NCBI GenBank assembly: GCA_024998685.1
Contig: JACOEH010000023.1
Span: forward strand, 1 to 64,000
Direction: 5' to 3'
Source of the DNA: Nitrospira sp.
GTDB taxonomy: Bacteria; Nitrospirota; Nitrospiria; Nitrospirales; Nitrospiraceae
Length of the DNA: 64,000 bases
Shown here: piece after piece, positions 23,467 to 36,739 of the stretch
How the letters are laid out: every line of letters begins with the position of its first letter
Numbering within the stretch: the first letter of the stretch is position 1
Position numbers and translations under genes: made by a program
Notes under the pieces: generated by a model
The model's database searches: none
What the model saw: only the letters and a program-made list of their open reading frames with translations
Told to the model about the DNA's origin: nothing

Positions 23467-25017
23467 ATGAAAACTTTATCGTCCCTCGTCTTAGTCCTGT
23501 GTTCAGGAATCGGCGTCTCCTTCGACCGAGCATTAGCACAGGTACCGGAGATTGATTCCATTCGGTTTTCAGAGGCTGCACTCGCCTTTTCCAGTGGTGC
23601 CATCCAGAAAACATCCCCGATCGACGGAACCGTAAACTTGGTAACGGGTGATAATCAGTCAACGGGCAATCGAATGCTTCTCGGGAAGCGAGATTTGCTT
23701 TATCTCAAACTGCGCAACCCAACCGATGTGGCAGTGGGTGATCTCTTCACCGTCTACCGGCGGGTTCGCAAAGTGTTCCATCCTGTGACAAAGGAATACC
23801 TCGGTTTTGTCATGAATCGTTCAGCGGTCGTGAAAGTGACTGCCGCCGATCATGCGCTCACGACAGTAGAGGCCGTGCTCAGTTACGGACCGATTTCCCC
23901 AGGGGATCCTGTCGCGCGTTTCGTTGCCCCCACTCTGGACATAGAGACGAGCTCCACAACAAACATTTCCGATCTCGAGGGTATGATCGTTGAGATCCAG
24001 GCCGACCGGACGATGACGCTGGTTTCACAGTCAAACGTTGTGTATCTGGATCGAGGGAAGGAGGACGGACTGAAGGTCGGTGATCTTCTCGATATTCATC
24101 GTCACAGTGCCGGGCTTCCACCACGAAAGATCGGCCAACTCAAGGTGCTGTCCCTGGAATCTCACACGGCAGCCGCCAAAGTCATCAAGGCAAACACCCG
24201 TGTCATCAAAGGAGACCGGTTCAAACTCACGGGATATGTGGCACCCCTTGCCCTGTCTGTCGGGGCAATCCCGGGATCGTCCACGACTCAGACCGGTCAA
24301 ATGATCCCGGCCGATTTAGTATTCAGCAAGCTAAAAATACAGGATGCATCAGGACAAAGCCGACTCAACCTTGGGGATCTCGCGAAGTTCCTGCACTACG
24401 ACTCTGGGGATGCGGCTATTAAGGTTGAAAATTACAAGCTGCTCGATCAGTTGATTGAATACCTGCGCACCAGTGGCGACCTGAGGATGATTCGAATCGA
24501 AGGCCATACGGATAACGTGGAGATCGGCCCTTCGCTCAAGTCGCGGTATCCAAGCAATTGGGAGTTATCCAAAGTGCGCGCGAACGGCGTCCTTCGTTAT
24601 CTCGTAGAAAAGGGCGGTGTGGCACCGGAACGGGTCAGTGCGGTGGGGCTCGGTGACACCAAACCGACTGCTATGAATACAGCGGAGGACGGACGCACGA
24701 AGAATCGGCGCGTGGAAATTCTTCTCTATACCCAGGAAATGGATGCGCCGACACTTCAACCCGGCGCGCAAAGGTTGGAGCACAATCCTTCAAGGTTGAG
24801 CGCACACGGAAGCGATGATCTACCTCTTCCATCGGCTGCTGCTTCAGACGCAGCGGATTCCTCCGGTCGGGGAACTTTATCTGTCGGCGATTCTTCTCAA
24901 ATTTCTGTGAAGGACGAATCGGGTGCCGTCAGTAACTCCGATTCGAATGGCGTTCCACCGACAGTCAGCAATAACACTTCTCCTCAACGGCCAGCCATCG
25001 GAACTCCGACGGAATAG
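23467..25017 (+). CDS. Exported OmpA-domain cell-envelope protein
   Basis: The 516-residue protein has a Sec signal (residues 1-25, cleavage after RALAQ). The N-terminal half (27-260) has two related small beta-type modules, marked by VGDLFTVYRR and VGDLLDIHRH, resembling the SH3-like folds of FlgT-type proteins. An OmpA/MotB peptidoglycan-binding domain (about 320-420) follows, with EGHTDNVEIGPSLKSRYP and GTKNRRVEI-like spacing (DGRTKNRRVEILL). The tail (430-516) is low-complexity, rich in serine, proline and asparagine. It probably anchors to peptidoglycan in the periplasm; its partner is unknown. A clear promoter precedes it. Confidence 0.85.
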   Translation: MKTLSSLVLVLCSGIGVSFDRALAQVPEIDSIRFSEAALAFSSGAIQKTSPIDGTVNLVTGDNQSTGNRMLLGKRDLLYLKLRNPTDVAVGDLFTVYRRVRKVFHPVTKEYLGFVMNRSAVVKVTAADHALTTVEAVLSYGPISPGDPVARFVAPTLDIETSSTTNISDLEGMIVEIQADRTMTLVSQSNVVYLDRGKEDGLKVGDLLDIHRHSAGLPPRKIGQLKVLSLESHTAAAKVIKANTRVIKGDRFKLTGYVAPLALSVGAIPGSSTTQTGQMIPADLVFSKLKIQDASGQSRLNLGDLAKFLHYDSGDAAIKVENYKLLDQLIEYLRTSGDLRMIRIEGHTDNVEIGPSLKSRYPSNWELSKVRANGVLRYLVEKGGVAPERVSAVGLGDTKPTAMNTAEDGRTKNRRVEILLYTQEMDAPTLQPGAQRLEHNPSRLSAHGSDDLPLPSAAASDAADSSGRGTLSVGDSSQISVKDESGAVSNSDSNGVPPTVSNNTSPQRPAIGTPTE

Positions 25018-25147: not shown

Positions 25148-27412
25148 ATGGCTTCTGATGGGACCTCGACCCCTCCTCGTCGAATGGAGATACTCTATGC
25201 AGACGTTATCGTGCCCCGCCATATCGCGAAAGCCTTCACCTATCGCGTTCCCCCTGCCTTAGCCCAGACTATAGCCATAGGGCGTCGCGTCCGTGTCCCG
25301 TTTGGACGTACGGTGCTGGAAGGAGTCGTCATCTCGCTGAGTAATCACCTTGCGACCGAGATAAAGGCCGCTTCCATTAGAGAAATCCACTCTCCAGATT
25401 GTGAAGGGGAAGTTTCTACACCGCCTCCAGCGCTGTTCGAACTATCTCGCAAGATCGCAGAATACTACGTTGCACCCTGGGGCCAGTGTCTTCGACTCAT
25501 ATTGCCCTCGATAGCAACGCGAAAAACTTCCTCCATGCGATACGTGGCTACTGCGCAAGGTCGTGCGGCTTTAGAAGCCGGCCTTTGTCCAGACTACCTG
25601 AAGCCGGCTCTTGCCCGAATTGCCCGACGAACTTCAGGAATCCTGGCTTCGACACTTCAACCAACTCGACAGGAAAACTCCATCTTGGAGATCGATGCTC
25701 TCATCAACAAGTCGTGGATAGCGCTCATCCCTTCGAACAACTCCAATGTCGAATTCCAAGAGCCGGGGAGGAAGCTCGCCTTGGATGAGTATGATCGTCG
25801 TCGAACGCCAGCGGATGGCACTTTGCCTACTGAAACGCTCCCGGAGGTCGACTCCGCATGGAAAACGCATGTCGCACACTGTCTTCACAGCAATTCCATG
25901 GGAAAACTCGTCCTTCATGCCCCGTGGGAACATCGACTCAGCCGGCTTGTTGAGGCCATTCAGCAAGCGCACTCTATGAAGAGATCCACCATCGTTCTCA
26001 CCGGTGAGATCGCCAGAGCATCGTGGTTGAAACAACTGCTCTCAAGACTCACGGGCCTCCAGATTATCCTCGCGCGCCCACCTTCAGAATCGGAGCGATG
26101 GCAACCGAATCAAGGACGGATAGTCGTAGGAACTCGTTCAGCCATATTTTCGCCTCTTAAATCGATCGGGCTGATCTGGGTGGAAGACGAAGAAGATCCT
26201 GCTCTGAAAGAACCTCAGGAGCCTCGCTATCATGCCAGAGAGGTCGCCAGTTTGAGAGCTGAGAGCGAACGGGCGCTCGTTGTACTGGCCTCGGCTCACC
26301 CATCTCTTGAATCGAGGTTCGACACCGAAGCTGAGTTCCACTATGTCTCACAAGACGTTGCCCTTCAACCGACGATTGAGCTCGTTGATCTTCGCGACGA
26401 GTCGGCAGGAATTCTCTTCAGCCACACACTCATCCGGGCGATGCACGAAGCGCTACAGAACCATGCCAAGATCCTGCTTTTCCTCAATAGGAAGGGTTAT
26501 GCCAGAACCTTGGTTTGCCGAGACTGTGGCTGGGTTCCTCGTTGCAATTCTTGTATCGTGTCGCTGACCTATTATCGTGAAGCCGGCAAGCTGACTTGCC
26601 GCTACTGTGGTAAGGCAGATCGATTACCGGATCTCTGTCCCTTGTGCCGTACTCCCGGTATGAGCCCTGTTGGTGACGGCACCGAACGCGTTGAAACCGA
26701 AGTTCATCGCTTATTCCCACAGGCCACAATCGCGCGACTCGATGGCGACACACTTCGGCATTCGCGGTCGGCGCATGCTCTGTGGAAAGAGGCCAGGTCT
26801 GGCGCGTGGGATGTTCTCATTGGAACACAAGCGCTGTTTCGTCGGGAGCCACTGCCTCGCTACGGTTTGGTGGGGATCCTCCAAGCAGATTCTGGGCTGC
26901 ATGTCTCGGAGTTCCGTGCCGCGGAGCGCACCTATCACTTGCTGGTCGATGCTGCCAGCCTGGCATGTCCAGCGTCCACCGGAGGTCGAGTCATCGTACA
27001 GACGCACCTTCCTACCCATCATGCGATACAAGCCTTGATCTCCGGAGATCCTAATCACTTTTACAATGAAGAATTCGCCGCACGCCGGCTTCTTCGCTAT
27101 CCGCCCGTCTGTCGCTTGGCTGATCTCTCAGTAACCGGAAAAGATCTTAGGATTGTCGAAGAGGCCGCCACGCGATGGGGGGCGGACCTTGAACAGAACA
27201 TCCGTGACCAGGAGCCTCTGATTGTTTTAGGACCAGTACCAGCAATACGCAGACGTCCAAAAGGTCATCAACAATATCGCATCTTGGTGAAAGGAACCGC
27301 ACTCACTGCTTTCAGTCGACGGATTCATGATTCCGTCCAGAAAATGGAGCGAGAGTATCGCAACAGGCGGATTAAATTCGTCATCGACATCGACCCGGTC
27401 GAAAATGGCTAA
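25148..27412 (+). CDS. priA: PriA-like primosomal protein N' with degenerate helicase motifs
   Basis: PriA normally reloads the replicative helicase at stalled forks. This 754-residue homologue is recognisable along its whole length. It has the N-terminal DNA-binding domain (VIVPRHIAKAFTYRVP), the VVGTRSAIFSPLKSIGLIW region, eight zinc-site cysteines (CRDCG, CNSC, CRYCG, CPLC) and the C-terminal domain. But the ATPase motifs are lost. APWEHRLSRL stands in place of the Walker A loop, VEDEED in place of DEEH, and DAASLACP in place of the QVAGRAGR arginine motif. The frame is intact, so it is not a pseudogene by frameshift. An ATG at 25184 is a possible later start; neither start has a good ribosome binding site. 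Confidence 0.85.
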   Translation: MASDGTSTPPRRMEILYADVIVPRHIAKAFTYRVPPALAQTIAIGRRVRVPFGRTVLEGVVISLSNHLATEIKAASIREIHSPDCEGEVSTPPPALFELSRKIAEYYVAPWGQCLRLILPSIATRKTSSMRYVATAQGRAALEAGLCPDYLKPALARIARRTSGILASTLQPTRQENSILEIDALINKSWIALIPSNNSNVEFQEPGRKLALDEYDRRRTPADGTLPTETLPEVDSAWKTHVAHCLHSNSMGKLVLHAPWEHRLSRLVEAIQQAHSMKRSTIVLTGEIARASWLKQLLSRLTGLQIILARPPSESERWQPNQGRIVVGTRSAIFSPLKSIGLIWVEDEEDPALKEPQEPRYHAREVASLRAESERALVVLASAHPSLESRFDTEAEFHYVSQDVALQPTIELVDLRDESAGILFSHTLIRAMHEALQNHAKILLFLNRKGYARTLVCRDCGWVPRCNSCIVSLTYYREAGKLTCRYCGKADRLPDLCPLCRTPGMSPVGDGTERVETEVHRLFPQATIARLDGDTLRHSRSAHALWKEARSGAWDVLIGTQALFRREPLPRYGLVGILQADSGLHVSEFRAAERTYHLLVDAASLACPASTGGRVIVQTHLPTHHAIQALISGDPNHFYNEEFAARRLLRYPPVCRLADLSVTGKDLRIVEEAATRWGADLEQNIRDQEPLIVLGPVPAIRRRPKGHQQYRILVKGTALTAFSRRIHDSVQKMEREYRNRRIKFVIDIDPVENG

Positions 27413-27849
27413 TTAGATGCCTTTCTTCTTTTGTTCGCCCGGGAAATCGACACCGTCGCAGCCTTCTCCAGAGATAGAGTCCCATCCGGTTTTTTACGCG
27501 CCCGCCTGAACAGGCCGTAAGAAAATGAAATCCAAAACACGGATGAGAAGAGACCCAGCACGACGGCTGAAAGAATCGTTCCCATCTCGGATTCAGGAAG
27601 TGATTCCGCCTGACCTCTGAATTGAATCATCAACACCAACGGCCAGGCAAAGCTTTCGAGGCCGAGCAACAAGGTCGTCCATGCCCATAGTGCCGCAATT
27701 GACTCCGTCATGAACCATAAGAAAAGCCCTACGCTCAGAGCCCATCCAACCACGATGATCGTGGAGACCGTTCCTCCCCATATGAGCCAGAACCCAATTG
27801 CGGCAACGAGGGTCCCCAGAGACAGATTGAGAAATCTCATGATGGGCAT
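27409..27849 (-). CDS. Multi-pass membrane protein of unknown function
   Basis: The 146-residue product has about four hydrophobic helices (near residues 7-25, 30-48, 52-72 and 88-110) and a basic C-terminal tail. I recognise no family. It is convergent with priA, and the two stops overlap by 4 bases. The next gene upstream is a receiver in the same orientation, 81 bases away. Confidence 0.65.
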   Translation of the reverse strand: MPIMRFLNLSLGTLVAAIGFWLIWGGTVSTIIVVGWALSVGLFLWFMTESIAALWAWTTLLLGLESFAWPLVLMIQFRGQAESLPESEMGTILSAVVLGLFSSVFWISFSYGLFRRARKKPDGTLSLEKAATVSISRANKRRKASN

Positions 27850-30565: not shown

Positions 30566-31222
30566 TCATCCTTGCCGTTTCACAAAAAAGGCGGCCGCCT
30601 GTGCGCGACGAGTAATGCGAAGCTTTTGAAATACGTTTGCCAAGTAATTCTTGACGGTCTTGTCGCTGAGTCCGAGCGCGACGGCGATTTCCTTATTGGT
30701 CTTTCCCTCGGCGACCAGTGCGACGACTCGTTCTTCCTGAGAAGACAGTTGATCCGTACCAGGAATGGACGGCAGATCGTGAAGCCCCCTCAACCATCGT
30801 AGAGCGCGTTCGGTCACACTGGAGTCCAAAATCGACTGGCCGTTGGCAACCGACCGGATGGCTTCGAGTAATGCGGGCGAATCGATTTCTTTGAGGACAT
30901 AGCCATGAGCGCCGGCGAGCACTGCGGCGAGAACGGAGTCATCGTCGGCATAGGACGTCAAGAAAATGATCCGTGTCCCCGGAAGCATCCCTAGAATTTC
31001 CCGACAGGCATCGACACCGGATCCGTCCGGCAGTCTGACATCCATCAAGATCACGTCGGGTTTCACCTTCTGCGCCTGTTGAATTGCATCCGCCATGGTC
31101 CCTGCTTCGCCTACAACGGTGACTCCATGAGTTTGGCCGAGCACCGTCCGCAACCCCACCCGAATGACCTCATGATCGTCGACAAGCACGACTCGAATGG
31201 CTTGAGTTTTAGTTGTGAGCAT
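30566..31222 (-). CDS. NarL/LuxR-family response regulator
   Basis: The 218-residue regulator joins an N-terminal receiver (D15-D16, phosphorylation site D61 in VILMDVRLPDGSG, lysine in YVLKEID) and a C-terminal LuxR-type helix-turn-helix (about 155-215), with LSSQEERVVALVAEGKTNKE. The start codon lies inside the 3' end of the giant PAS kinase gene (14-base overlap). That kinase has the HisKA_3 type of phospho-acceptor usual for NarL partners, so the two almost certainly form a pair. Confidence 0.92.
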   Translation of the reverse strand: MLTTKTQAIRVVLVDDHEVIRVGLRTVLGQTHGVTVVGEAGTMADAIQQAQKVKPDVILMDVRLPDGSGVDACREILGMLPGTRIIFLTSYADDDSVLAAVLAGAHGYVLKEIDSPALLEAIRSVANGQSILDSSVTERALRWLRGLHDLPSIPGTDQLSSQEERVVALVAEGKTNKEIAVALGLSDKTVKNYLANVFQKLRITRRAQAAAFFVKRQG

Positions 31223-34200
31223 AATGGGTATCCTTCGGAAGATCGAGGCAAATCCTCGTCCCCTTGTCAGGTTTTGACTGAATGGCGAACAAGCCTCGTA
31301 TTTTTTGAGCCCGTGCCGCCATGTTGACTAATCCATGACCGACTCCCTGAACCGACCGTGTATTAAATCCAATGCCGTCATCCGTCACGGCGAGACGATC
31401 TGAGCGGATGAGGTCTCGGAGCGACACCGTGATCTGTTTAGCCCGACTGTGGCGCAGTGCATTACTCAATCCTTCCCGTACAATGTTGATAATATGGAGC
31501 GCCTGTTCGGTGGAAAGCCGCCGTGCCGCTGCATCATCGATTCTCACCCGACATCTGGCGGAAGAGGATGTGGACATCGTTTCGACCATGGTTCGCAGGG
31601 CGGCCGAGAAGTCTCCGCCTTGCATCACTTGAGATTCGAGTCCGGCGATAAAATTCCGGACTTCCGTCATGACTTGGTTGAGCTGTCCAATGGCTTGATT
31701 TAATGTCGCCATGAATTTCTCCGCCACATGATCTTGTTGTTTCTTGATCAGTGGTTTACACGCTTCTAATCCCAGCCCGACTGCGTATAAGGATTGAAGA
31801 ATGCCATCGTGGAGGTCTTGACTGATCCGCTCCCGTTCTTGAAGTGCCGCGCTCAAGTCCCGCTCCCGCTGCAGGAGTATCTCTTCCATTCGTTTACGCT
31901 CGGTGATATCGGTCGCGGTTCCGAGCACCATATGGACACGTCCCTGGTCATCGAAAATCGGCCTTTTGACCGTTTGTAACCAGCGCGTCCTTCCCCCTGC
32001 ATCGGTGATCCTCTCTTCCGGGATGAACCGATCCCTCCCGGAATGAATCACCTCAAGATCGCTCTTCCGAAAGCACTCCACCTCTTCCGCATTGGGATTG
32101 AAGTCGGCGTCCGATTTCCCGACTAAGTCTTCCACCGTAGAGCCATACCAATCGGCCACAGCTTTGTTGGCCATGGTAAAATATCCTTCGCGGTCCTTGG
32201 CAAAAATGAGGTCGGGGTCCGTGTCAATCACCTGTCGCAAGAACGTATGGGAGCGGTGGAGTTCCGCCTCCGCCCGCTTGCGTTCTCCAATATCCCTTAG
32301 GATTGCACAGCCATACTCTTTCCCATCATACTGCAGATAATTAAAGGTCACCTCCATCTCTAAGACAGTACCGGTTCGTGACCAATACGTAGCTTCAAAC
32401 ACCAACGCTCCCTGCTTCTTTAAGTAATTCCAATGTTCCAACCATCGTTCCACAGGAAAATTGGGGTCGATGTCGTGCATCGTCATGGTCGTCAGGTCCT
32501 GCCGTGCATACCCCAACATTCGGCATGCGGTCTCATTGACGTTGAATATTCGACCAGTCTGATCGACCCATAGGATCGCCTCTACTGCCTGATCCACTGA
32601 GAATTGGGTCAACCGCAGCGCTCGCTCCATCCGTTTGCTCTCTGTGACATCATCCCCAACCGTTACGCTACACGGCTTACCGTTCAACTCAATGAGTTCC
32701 GACGACAACAGGCACTGGCGGATTTCTCCGCTCTTGCTCCGCAGGGTTACTTCCATGTTCCGGACAGATCCGACACGTTTCAATCGTTCGACAAAGCGAG
32801 CCCGTTCCTCCGCTGAATGCCAGAGACCCACCTGTAACGTGGTGTATCCCACAACTTCTTCTTTGCAATATCCAAATAACTGATAGGCAGCATCATTGGC
32901 GTCCACTACTCGGCCAGAGTCCAGCTCGCTGACGACGACCGGATGGGGACTGGCTCGGAACGCCTTGGCAAAACGTTCTTCACTGGCTCGCAGCGCCTCC
33001 TCCGCCTGTTTGCGCTCGGTAATATCGACTATGGCACCGATCAACCGAGTCAACCGTCCGTTCTGATCACGAACGCTATGGCATCGCACATCGGTCCAAA
33101 CGATGGAGCCGTCTTTCTTGACCATGCGAAGCTCGCAGCGACACATGTCCGCTGTTCCGTCCCGCATCCGTTCCCAATTGTTCACAGCAATTGGTCGATC
33201 GCCGGGAAAGACCAAGTTCAGCCAGGCATAAGGTTCGGGAGAAAGTTCCTCCGGGGCATAACCAAAGATGGCTTTCAGATTGGCGTCTCCATAATAGTAG
33301 TGATTCTTTTCGATATCCATTTCCCACACACCCACCTTGCCGATAACAGTGGCCCGCCCATAACGCTCCTCGCTCTCCCGCAAGGCAACTTCCATCCGTT
33401 TGCGCTCCGTAATATCGTTGCCGATCGTCAGCAGACACCTTTTCCCCTTGAGGGTGATCAGGTCGACCGAGATGAGGAATTGACGCATGTCCCCATTCTT
33501 CATCCGCATCGACACTTCTCGATTTCGGACTGATCCTTTGGATCTGAGGTGATCGATCAACTTGGTTCGTTCTTGAAGATCAGGCCAGATTCCGAGCATC
33601 AATGTGGTGTTTCCAATCACTTCTTCTCGACAAAAACCGTACACCTTCAAACAGGCGTCGTTCACCTCGATGCAACGACCGGTTTCAAGCTCCGTGATCC
33701 CGATCAGATGAGGGCTTGTGCGGAAGGCCTTGGAGAATCGCTCCTCGCTTTCGCGCAACGCCTCCTCCGCCGCCTTGCGTTCGGTGATATCCCATGTGAT
33801 GCCGGAAATCCGGACGGGCTTGCCGTCTGCATCACACGTGACATGACCCTCTCCGTGAAGCCAGCGCTCCTCGCCATCGCGCAGAATGCGAAACTCGATA
33901 CGTTGTCCTCCACCCTCCCTCACGGCTTGCGCAAACTCAGCCTCCACTCTTGCACGATCATCGGGGTGAATATACGCGATCCAATTCTCATACGATGGTG
34001 TCACATCGCGCGATACTCCCAACAGTTCATAGTACGGTGCCGACCATCGGGATGTGCTTGTACGCAAATCAATGTCCCACACGCCGGCTCGCGCGCTCCG
34101 CTGAGCAAGTAGCAGCATCGCCTCGCTCTCCCGAAGCAACTCCTCGGTTTGTTTACGCTCGGTGATATCGACGGTGGCGCCGATCAGGTGCGTCACTTGT

Positions 34201-36500
34201 CCATCTCGATCTCGGACAGCACGGGCTCGCACGTCACCCCAGATAATAGAGCCATCCTTCTTTATGTGACGGAGCTCATAGTGAGCGGCATCGGCAGCCC
34301 CACTTTGCACCAGTTCCCAGTTCTGCATGGCAATCGCCTGGTCGTCCGGATGAACCAGCTTCAACCAAACGAAGGGATCCGTAGAAAGCTCTTCCAATCC
34401 ATAACCGAAAAGGGCCTTCAGATTGCCGTCGCCATGGTATTGGCCCTTTAGAGCATCCAATTCCCACACACCCACTTTGGCGACGGCAGTGGCACGCGCA
34501 TAGCGCTCCTCGCTGGCGCGCAACGCCTCCTCCGTCTGCTTACGTTCGGTAATGTCGCGCATGAAACAATGGTGGCCGAGAAACCCGCCGACCGACGGTT
34601 TGCTCCTTACCATCAGGACCTGCTTAAAGAAGATGGAACCGTCTTTGCGCACAGCTCGACATTCGAATTCCGCTTTTCCTTTTTCCAGCAACTGTTTATA
34701 CGCATGTTGAGCGATGCACAAGTCTTCTGGGTGCACGGTCGGCTCCCAGGCTCGTCCGAGTAATTCGGATGGTTCATACCCCAGCATCGCCGCATAGAGC
34801 TGATTCACCTCCAGATAGCGGCCATCAAAGTCGACTCGGAAAATACCCGGCATGGCCTGAGCTAAGGCCAGGTTCATTTCTCGCACACGGTCTTCACCCC
34901 GTTTGCGCTCGGTGATATCGGAGAACAGGCCGAGGATGGCCGGCTTACCGTTCCATGTGATCCGAGCTGCCTCGACCTGAACCGGAATCGGTGTTCCATC
35001 CATCTTCAGATACATTCGTTCCGCACTATGGACGGACATTCCGCCGTTCAGCAGCCGTCGCACATTTTCACGAACTTCTTGATGATAGTCCGGATGGATG
35101 AACTCAAACGTCGGCCGGTCGAAAATTTCCTGAGCATCCCTCGCTCCCAGGAGGACGGCGCCCGTGTGGTTGATATAGACCGTTTGTCCTTCACTGAAGA
35201 CGAATACCCCCGATGGCGAAAGCTCGACCAAAGTCCTGTACCATTCTTCACTCTCCCGCACTGACTCTTCCATTCGTTTGCGATCAGTAATGTCGGTGTG
35301 TGAGCCGAGGAGACGAATACTTCGCCCATCCGCTTCGGCGACAAACGAGGCTCGCGCTTCGATCCACCGGTACGTCCCGTCCTTGTGCCTCAACCGAAAT
35401 TCCTGTCGATAATCTCCCTCGCGACTGGAAAGGTAGTCTCGTACATACGCAACCGCCCTATCGTGATCATCGGGGTGGAGATGCGTCGTCCATGTCTCAA
35501 ATGAGTCCGACATTTCCGTCGGCTCATAGCCGAGCTGATACTTCCATTCTTCGGATAAGACCGCCTCGTTCGTTTCAGTATTCCAGTCCCATAAACCTGT
35601 ACCGGACGCCTGGAGGGCTTGTCGGAGTTTTTCTTGTGCGGTCCGTAGCATCGCCTCCGCGAGTTTCCGCTCGGTGATGTCACGTGAATTTACGATCACA
35701 CTCCATCGGCCTTCTGGATCACTCGTCGCCCGGCCGATTCCTTCCAAGCTGCGCCACGAGCCGTCTTTGTGGCGAAAACGGAATTCGGCCATTTGAGGTG
35801 TTCCAGGCCGCTCAATCAGCAACCGAAACTTCTCGGTCACAGCAGGAAGGTCCTCGTGATGGACGAATTCGAATGCGATTCGTCCATTGAGCTCGTGTTG
35901 TGCATACCCGAGCAATCGCTCGATTGAGGGGCTCTCGAACTGGATGACCCCGCCTTGATCGAGAACCGTAATAATGTCGGAGGAATGCTCAATCAGCGCG
36001 CGGAAGTACGTCTCGCGTTGCTTGAGTACCGACTCTCCTCGCTTGCGATCGGTTACGTCCAAGGCTGTCCCGAACATACGAAGGGGTTGACCGCTGCTGT
36101 CACGGATAACCTCGCCACAGGAGTGAATCATCCGTATCTCACCATCTTGGCGGACGATCCGGAATTCGATATCATAGGTAGCCTTCCCTGCCAACGCGTC
36201 ATCGATCGACGCCAAGACCCGGTCATGATCGTCCGGGAGTACCGCCGACACAAAGCTGTCGAAGGTCATCGTTCGTGATCGGGGTTCATAGCCGAAGATC
36301 CGGTAGAGTTCATCCGACCACTCCACCTCGCCGCTTGCGATGTCCCAATTCCAACTCCCCAGGTGAGCAAGAGCTAGTGCGACTTGGAGGTGTCGAGTCC
36401 GTTCATGCAGCACTCGGTCTCGTTCGGCAAGTTCACGTCCGAGATCAGCTACCTGCCTGCGCAGCAGATCTAATTCATGAAGATGGCTCGTAGGACTCAT
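31209..36500 (-). CDS. Giant multi-PAS sensor histidine kinase (HisKA_3 type)
   Basis: The 1,763-residue cytoplasmic protein carries about 12 PAS/PAC modules, each ending in a variant of DITERK, in tandem from the N terminus to about residue 1,535. A HisKA_3 domain follows with the phospho-acceptor in ISQDLHDGILQSL (His near 1,565), then a NarX-type HATPase domain with NIVREGLSNALRHS and DDGIGFN. No membrane segment is seen. Some modules are close copies of each other, which indicates internal duplication. AAGGAG precedes the ATG at 36500 by 7 bases. It is coupled to the NarL-type regulator downstream. Confidence 0.92.
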   Translation of the reverse strand: MSPTSHLHELDLLRRQVADLGRELAERDRVLHERTRHLQVALALAHLGSWNWDIASGEVEWSDELYRIFGYEPRSRTMTFDSFVSAVLPDDHDRVLASIDDALAGKATYDIEFRIVRQDGEIRMIHSCGEVIRDSSGQPLRMFGTALDVTDRKRGESVLKQRETYFRALIEHSSDIITVLDQGGVIQFESPSIERLLGYAQHELNGRIAFEFVHHEDLPAVTEKFRLLIERPGTPQMAEFRFRHKDGSWRSLEGIGRATSDPEGRWSVIVNSRDITERKLAEAMLRTAQEKLRQALQASGTGLWDWNTETNEAVLSEEWKYQLGYEPTEMSDSFETWTTHLHPDDHDRAVAYVRDYLSSREGDYRQEFRLRHKDGTYRWIEARASFVAEADGRSIRLLGSHTDITDRKRMEESVRESEEWYRTLVELSPSGVFVFSEGQTVYINHTGAVLLGARDAQEIFDRPTFEFIHPDYHQEVRENVRRLLNGGMSVHSAERMYLKMDGTPIPVQVEAARITWNGKPAILGLFSDITERKRGEDRVREMNLALAQAMPGIFRVDFDGRYLEVNQLYAAMLGYEPSELLGRAWEPTVHPEDLCIAQHAYKQLLEKGKAEFECRAVRKDGSIFFKQVLMVRSKPSVGGFLGHHCFMRDITERKQTEEALRASEERYARATAVAKVGVWELDALKGQYHGDGNLKALFGYGLEELSTDPFVWLKLVHPDDQAIAMQNWELVQSGAADAAHYELRHIKKDGSIIWGDVRARAVRDRDGQVTHLIGATVDITERKQTEELLRESEAMLLLAQRSARAGVWDIDLRTSTSRWSAPYYELLGVSRDVTPSYENWIAYIHPDDRARVEAEFAQAVREGGGQRIEFRILRDGEERWLHGEGHVTCDADGKPVRISGITWDITERKAAEEALRESEERFSKAFRTSPHLIGITELETGRCIEVNDACLKVYGFCREEVIGNTTLMLGIWPDLQERTKLIDHLRSKGSVRNREVSMRMKNGDMRQFLISVDLITLKGKRCLLTIGNDITERKRMEVALRESEERYGRATVIGKVGVWEMDIEKNHYYYGDANLKAIFGYAPEELSPEPYAWLNLVFPGDRPIAVNNWERMRDGTADMCRCELRMVKKDGSIVWTDVRCHSVRDQNGRLTRLIGAIVDITERKQAEEALRASEERFAKAFRASPHPVVVSELDSGRVVDANDAAYQLFGYCKEEVVGYTTLQVGLWHSAEERARFVERLKRVGSVRNMEVTLRSKSGEIRQCLLSSELIELNGKPCSVTVGDDVTESKRMERALRLTQFSVDQAVEAILWVDQTGRIFNVNETACRMLGYARQDLTTMTMHDIDPNFPVERWLEHWNYLKKQGALVFEATYWSRTGTVLEMEVTFNYLQYDGKEYGCAILRDIGERKRAEAELHRSHTFLRQVIDTDPDLIFAKDREGYFTMANKAVADWYGSTVEDLVGKSDADFNPNAEEVECFRKSDLEVIHSGRDRFIPEERITDAGGRTRWLQTVKRPIFDDQGRVHMVLGTATDITERKRMEEILLQRERDLSAALQERERISQDLHDGILQSLYAVGLGLEACKPLIKKQQDHVAEKFMATLNQAIGQLNQVMTEVRNFIAGLESQVMQGGDFSAALRTMVETMSTSSSARCRVRIDDAAARRLSTEQALHIINIVREGLSNALRHSRAKQITVSLRDLIRSDRLAVTDDGIGFNTRSVQGVGHGLVNMAARAQKIRGLFAIQSKPDKGTRICLDLPKDTHYAHN

Positions 36501-36739
36501 GATGAGGCTCCTTGCTGGGCGACATCGATCATACATCGAAAGCCGGTTCGGCTCGTGGGAGCAACCATTTCACGAACCGATGATCGAGTCCGGCCTTCCC
36601 CAGGAAAAGACTTTCGTCTTCGGCCGAAGTTATTGTTCCTAAGGAAAGCAGCAGTTTCCTATGAGAAATGTGGAAAAGTCTAGATCCAAATGGCCCGGAG
36701 GTCTTCAGCGGGGAAATCAGCAGAAGCTGTTTAGATCGA

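Follow-up and report, generated by a model that had tools for sequence, protein, structure and literature searches.

The priA locus and its product

The window (the whole stretch of DNA that was analysed, 64,000 nucleotides) carries a priA gene on the forward strand whose product combines intact DNA-binding and zinc-binding parts with replaced helicase motifs. Motifs were called by aligning the window protein to E. coli PriA, and the features are as follows.

25148..27412, + strand: putative PriA pseudohelicase gene, 754 amino acids; the sole priA of the genome by reading frame and profile matches
25202..25507, + strand: 3′-DNA-binding domain (3′BD), intact, residues 19–120; Pfam PF17764, E = 4.8e-21
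25916..25945, + strand: former motif I (Walker A); APWEHRLSRL replaces the GVTGSGKT loop and is one residue shorter
26183..26194, + strand: former motif II (Walker B); EDEE replaces DEEH
26288..26302, + strand: former motif III; ASAHP replaces GSATP, with loss of the Thr
26516..26647, + strand: zinc cysteine-rich region (CRR) with eight Cys, residues 457–500; Pfam PF18319
26822..26848, + strand: former motif V; GTQALFRRE replaces GTQMLAKGH, with GTQ kept and the Lys and Gly lost
26948..26971, + strand: former motif VI; DAASLACP replaces QVAGRAGR, with loss of both Arg
27104..27397, + strand: PriA C-terminal domain (CTD), intact, residues 653–750; Pfam PF18074, E = 3.9e-12

The frame is open, as a preliminary description of this DNA had stated: translation runs from an ATG at 25148 to the stop codon at 27412 without an internal stop. 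An upstream extension to a GTG at 24923, overlapping an OmpA-like gene, is possible; in relatives, the start lies near the equivalent of 25148–25184. The OmpA-family gene (23467–25017, + strand) is immediately upstream, and the gene order nuoA, ompA-like, priA is kept across family f1. Directly 3′ of priA and convergent with it, a gene at 27409–27849 (− strand) encodes a predicted hydrophobic protein of 146 amino acids without a Pfam match, a homologue of which adjoins priA in nearly all examined Nitrospirales loci, those of family f2 included. Further downstream lies a gene for a histidine kinase of 1775 amino acids with about nine tandem PAS domains (31209–36536, − strand).

The protein belongs to the PriA family: it matches TIGR00595 (priA) along its whole length with 358–359 bits, against a cut-off of 230.35, and the Pfam domains PriA_3primeBD (residues 19–120), Zn_ribbon_PriA (466–489) and PriA_C (653–750) all score above their cut-offs. 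PRK14873 models match it below cut-off and PRK05580 models score better; the nearest solved structures in a sequence search are those of PriA. The signatures of an SF2 helicase (Walker A, DEEH and QxxGRxGR) are absent. At motif I, E. coli GVTGSGKT aligns with HAPW-EHRL, with one residue deleted. Our alignment thus places the replacement of motif I by APWEHRLSRL exactly where the preliminary description had it, at 25916–25945. It also bears out the changes reported near 26180 (DEEH to EDEE, codons from 26183) and near 26950 (QVAGRAGR to DAASLACP, from 26948), as well as the integrity of the zinc cysteines and flanking domains, with eight aligned Cys and Pfam domains above cut-off. That account of motifs I, II and VI was correct but incomplete, because motifs III and V, which it overlooked, are also replaced. 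Judged from its sequence, the window protein is a PriA by descent and not an SF2 helicase by motif.

The host genome is Nitrospira-like, 4.83 Mb in size and 98.8% complete. A search for a second, active priA had been suggested, and TIGR00595 revealed none across the whole 4.83 Mb. Three weaker matches, each with an intact P-loop of its own, were set aside after being named from motifs and length: L002 is Mfd-like (GDVGYGKT/QLRGRVGR), L003 is UvrB-like (GVTGSGKT) and L004 is RecG-like (GDVGAGKT/DEQH). With one priA in the assembled sequence, the possibility that this gene decays while an intact second copy does its work is excluded for that sequence.

Distribution of motif loss in Nitrospirota

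Searches for PriA covered 296 genomes across the phylum, 236 from the order (family search) and the seven from a neighbouring order; we aligned 111 of the PriAs obtained, together with two second-copy fragments from one genome (G434) and E. coli PriA. The motif-less set comprises 85 PriAs from families f1, f2, f3 and f40 of the same order and from family f8 of the neighbouring order in the same class; the other 26, from elsewhere in the class and phylum, form the motif-bearing set. This comparison, for which the preliminary description had called, divided the phylum sharply. The Walker A Lys, motif III Thr, motif V Lys and first motif VI Arg are each found in 0/85 PriAs of the order and its neighbour, whereas the Walker A Lys and Thr are retained in 26/26 PriAs elsewhere. 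Chance is ruled out as an explanation by the same ATP positions being lost in 85/85 and kept in 26/26 PriAs of the phylum.

Named genomes agree with this division. The motifs are lacking in 11/11 loci labelled Nitrospira, Nitrospirales or Nitrospirae, including those of Nitrospirales bacterium NPIRA06 and of the complete genome of the isolate Nitrospira moscoviensis NSP M-1. Assembly or sequencing error is ruled out, because the same state recurs in 85 relatives and in isolate N. moscoviensis. In loci retrieved from other phyla, Walker A and the motif VI Gly-Arg are retained in 69/69. The named Nitrospira and Nitrospirales sequences group with f1 and f2 in the tree, from which we infer that f1 corresponds to Nitrospiraceae and the order to Nitrospirales. 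The helicase motifs are replaced, as the preliminary description held, but this is not peculiar to the one protein: the loss is a trait inherited across the order and its neighbour, so that the three motif losses are not independent evidence.

Several loci depart from the common pattern. In family f40 of the same order (L125–L128; G399–G402), PriA keeps DEEH and has lost motifs I and VI, making the family an apparent intermediate in motif loss by its sequence. In the neighbouring order, G434 has two PriA genes (C30 and C53; L099, L103, L110), both without helicase motifs and one with a stop or frame break. Elsewhere in the phylum, locus L085 (G203, family f37) has an intact Walker A but reads DEEQ at motif II and QLAEKVGT at a degraded motif VI, and may be losing its motifs in a second, independent event. 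Several genomes of the same genus gave no PriA match above cut-off (G105, G257, G349 and a few others), some of them 94–99% complete (G105: 2.0 Mb, 99%). In these, the gene is either absent or in an assembly gap; unless such gaps account for it, absence from near-complete genomes would be odd if PriA were essential.

A probable single ancestral loss

In three trees, the motif-less PriAs occupy one side of a single branch, with support of 99, 100 and 100/99. The third tree (ultrafast bootstrap 100, SH-aLRT 99) drew its outgroups from other phyla and left out every motif column; the group persists in it, so the grouping is not an artefact of shared motif loss. Given that the motif-less PriAs form one group and that the root falls among motif-bearing PriAs, the simplest reading would be that the motifs were lost once, in an ancestor shared by Nitrospirales and the neighbouring order. 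The trees have long branches and do not settle which motif-bearing PriA inside Nitrospirota is closest. In these trees, which were built without Deinococcota, acquisition by transfer of a PriA that was already inactive is improbable, and the motif-bearing PriAs elsewhere in the class and phylum suggest that the loss inside Nitrospirota was separate from that in Deinococcus.

Constraint on the motif-less protein

Pairwise dN/dS values (Nei–Gojobori) for the whole gene are 0.15–0.32 in 15 motif-less pairs; the two motif-bearing pairs give 0.10 and 0.25. By domain, with approximate borders in E. coli numbering, HD1 and HD2 are constrained about as much as the DNA-binding domains, and the winged-helix region is the loosest. 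The preliminary description had named a second intact priA, with this gene evolving neutrally, as an outcome that would count against it; the genome has no second priA, and the gene is under purifying selection that includes the helicase lobes.

Individual positions were compared as well. As a reference we took positions that are near-invariant in the phylum's motif-bearing PriAs, and counted them as kept if present in at least 80% of motif-less PriAs. By this measure, 6/8 positions are kept in the 3′BD, 10/13 in the CRR, 22/38 in HD2 and 7/9 in the CTD; the CRR count includes all eight Cys, which are present in every aligned sequence. HD1 keeps 21/56 and has lost 35/56. Its losses include the ATP site (Q203, G227–T231, D320, E321 and T358 in E. 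coli numbering), and it retains the GTR element (G302, R304), R338 and R344. The pattern indicates that ATP chemistry was lost selectively and that the protein did not decay as a whole.

An AlphaFold2 model built with 32 sequences (mean pLDDT 85.6, pTM 0.83) predicts that the overall PriA fold is retained, and its nine best Foldseek matches are all PriA structures, among them the fork-bound E. coli complex 8fak. The model places two residues between the strand that precedes the former P-loop (252–257) and the next helix (260–276), too short a stretch to accommodate a normal phosphate-binding loop.

Restart partners and proposed function

The genome encodes DnaB and also DciA, which was found in 112/118 genomes of the order. 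A search for PriC found none, and the PriB model gave a single match below cut-off, which is SSB-like and probably an SSB. Loading of DnaB in E. coli needs PriB, DnaT and DnaC, whereas here the PriB model yields that sub-cut-off match alone, which counts against the function proposed below.

The catalytic motifs are lost in a sole, conserved PriA, the mark of a pseudohelicase. We consider it very probable that this PriA serves as an ATP-independent platform for fork recognition and DnaB recruitment, and infer accordingly that it lacks ATPase activity, binds forks and recruits DnaB, with DciA perhaps involved. The preliminary description had likewise proposed a protein kept for fork recognition or primosome assembly without unwinding. 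Its factual basis holds (the protein is retained, its zinc and DNA positions are kept and its ATP positions are lost), although the idea was already established in Deinococcus radiodurans.

Under this model, PriA would have lost ATP binding and hydrolysis in the common ancestor of Nitrospirales and the neighbouring order and stayed on as a structure-specific fork binder. An abandoned fork or D-loop would be recognized by the 3′BD, the CTD and those faces of the two helicase lobes that touch DNA. The zinc CRR would then swing and enclose the lagging-strand ssDNA, as in E. coli PriA, in which the fork-bound form holds this strand in a pore made by the CRR, HD2 and CTD, and the CRR swing exposes a partner-docking surface (PMC10175261). 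Exposure of that surface would bring in DnaB, directly or with DciA, without unwinding by PriA, and forks with a duplex lagging arm would be opened by another helicase. We propose an ATP-independent, DnaB-recruiting fork sensor because the parts needed for these steps in E. coli and Deinococcus are kept and those for unwinding are lost. A more elaborate version, in which the ATP-less lobes have been rebuilt as a docking device, for example a direct landing site for DciA or DnaB, giving fully ATP-independent PriA–DciA restart without PriB, PriC or DnaT, is conceivable but unlikely.

PriA might instead have been repurposed outside restart, for another role at forks or flaps such as blocking, scaffolding of repair enzymes or regulation. 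Restart and another fork-bound role are indistinguishable by sequence alone, and the loss of 35/56 otherwise near-invariant positions in HD1 would suit such a change. We nonetheless regard repurposing as improbable, because the genome has this one PriA and yielded no PriC, the protein retains the C-terminal and zinc domains that serve in primosome assembly, and the parallel protein of Deinococcus still binds DnaB (PMC4504706). Far less probable is a still ATP-driven enzyme with a rebuilt, unrecognized nucleotide site. The second Glu of motif II is retained in 83/85 motif-less PriAs and an Arg aligns with the Walker A Lys in 67/85; however, the P-loop is shortened and has lost its Gly residues and Thr, both motif VI Arg and the upstream Gln (E. 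coli Q203) are gone, and a Lys-to-Arg change alone (K230R) abolishes the ATPase of E. coli PriA (cited in PMC4504706). A decaying pseudogene, drifting and yielding no useful protein, is barely credible. In its favour, motifs that are otherwise near-universal have disappeared and PriA goes undetected in a few genomes of the genus; against it, every best priA match of the order among the matches listed has an open frame, dN/dS is 0.15–0.32, the eight Cys are kept in all sequences and the motif-less trait dates back as far as the order itself.

Laboratory E. coli can do without the helicase activity of PriA, yet nearly all bacteria conserve its motifs. The Nitrospira order, apparently without a PriA helicase since its common ancestor, therefore offers a natural experiment on which parts restart truly needs, and raises the question of what opens forks with a duplex lagging arm in this order. 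It also makes the annotation 'replication restart helicase PriA' misleading for Nitrospira genomes.

Comparison with known PriA proteins

UniProt/HAMAP carries a caution that actinobacterial PriA (PRK14873-type, for example M. tuberculosis Rv1402) lacks detectable helicase domains; the one Actinomycetota-labelled PriA that we retrieved (L203) has intact motifs. In the open-licence literature we found no other bacterial 'pseudohelicase', although subscription papers may hold an earlier mention, and nothing relevant on Nitrospira together with PriA or replication restart.

The window protein resembles E. coli PriA (8fak, PMC10175261) in domain order (3′BD, WH, HD1, CRR, HD2, CTD), in its eight zinc Cys and in the PriA fold recognized by Foldseek. 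Unlike it, E. coli PriA has all helicase motifs, hydrolyses ATP and works with PriB, PriC and DnaT. Even there, PriA ATPase is not needed for PriA–PriB restart in vivo, and the ATPase-dead K230A protein loads DnaB and is used in the standard loading assay (PMC10175261).

The closest parallel is in Deinococcus–Thermus, where PriA is likewise the sole PriA-type protein, has degenerate Walker A and B motifs throughout the lineage and keeps its DNA-binding and zinc parts; ATP-independent restart with DnaB is proposed for both. ATPase activity was not measurable for D. radiodurans PriA, and it unwound 4% of forks in comparison with 56% unwound by the E. coli protein. Its apparent Kd for forks is about 108 nM, and it associates with DnaB in a complex (PMC4504706). 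ATPase loss, fork binding and DnaB binding are thus measured in Deinococcus, whereas in Nitrospirales, which belong to another phylum, they are deduced. The PriA pseudohelicase kind was established for Deinococcus in 2015 (Lopper et al. 2015, PMC4504706), and the idea of a dead-motor PriA is itself already known from that work. Novel in the present case are the lineage, how thoroughly the motifs have been lost, the intermediate family and the evidence pointing to one old loss with constraint thereafter. In Deinococcus, Walker A keeps its outline with a Lys-to-Arg change, whereas in Nitrospirales it forms a shorter loop and motifs III, V and VI have been lost as well.
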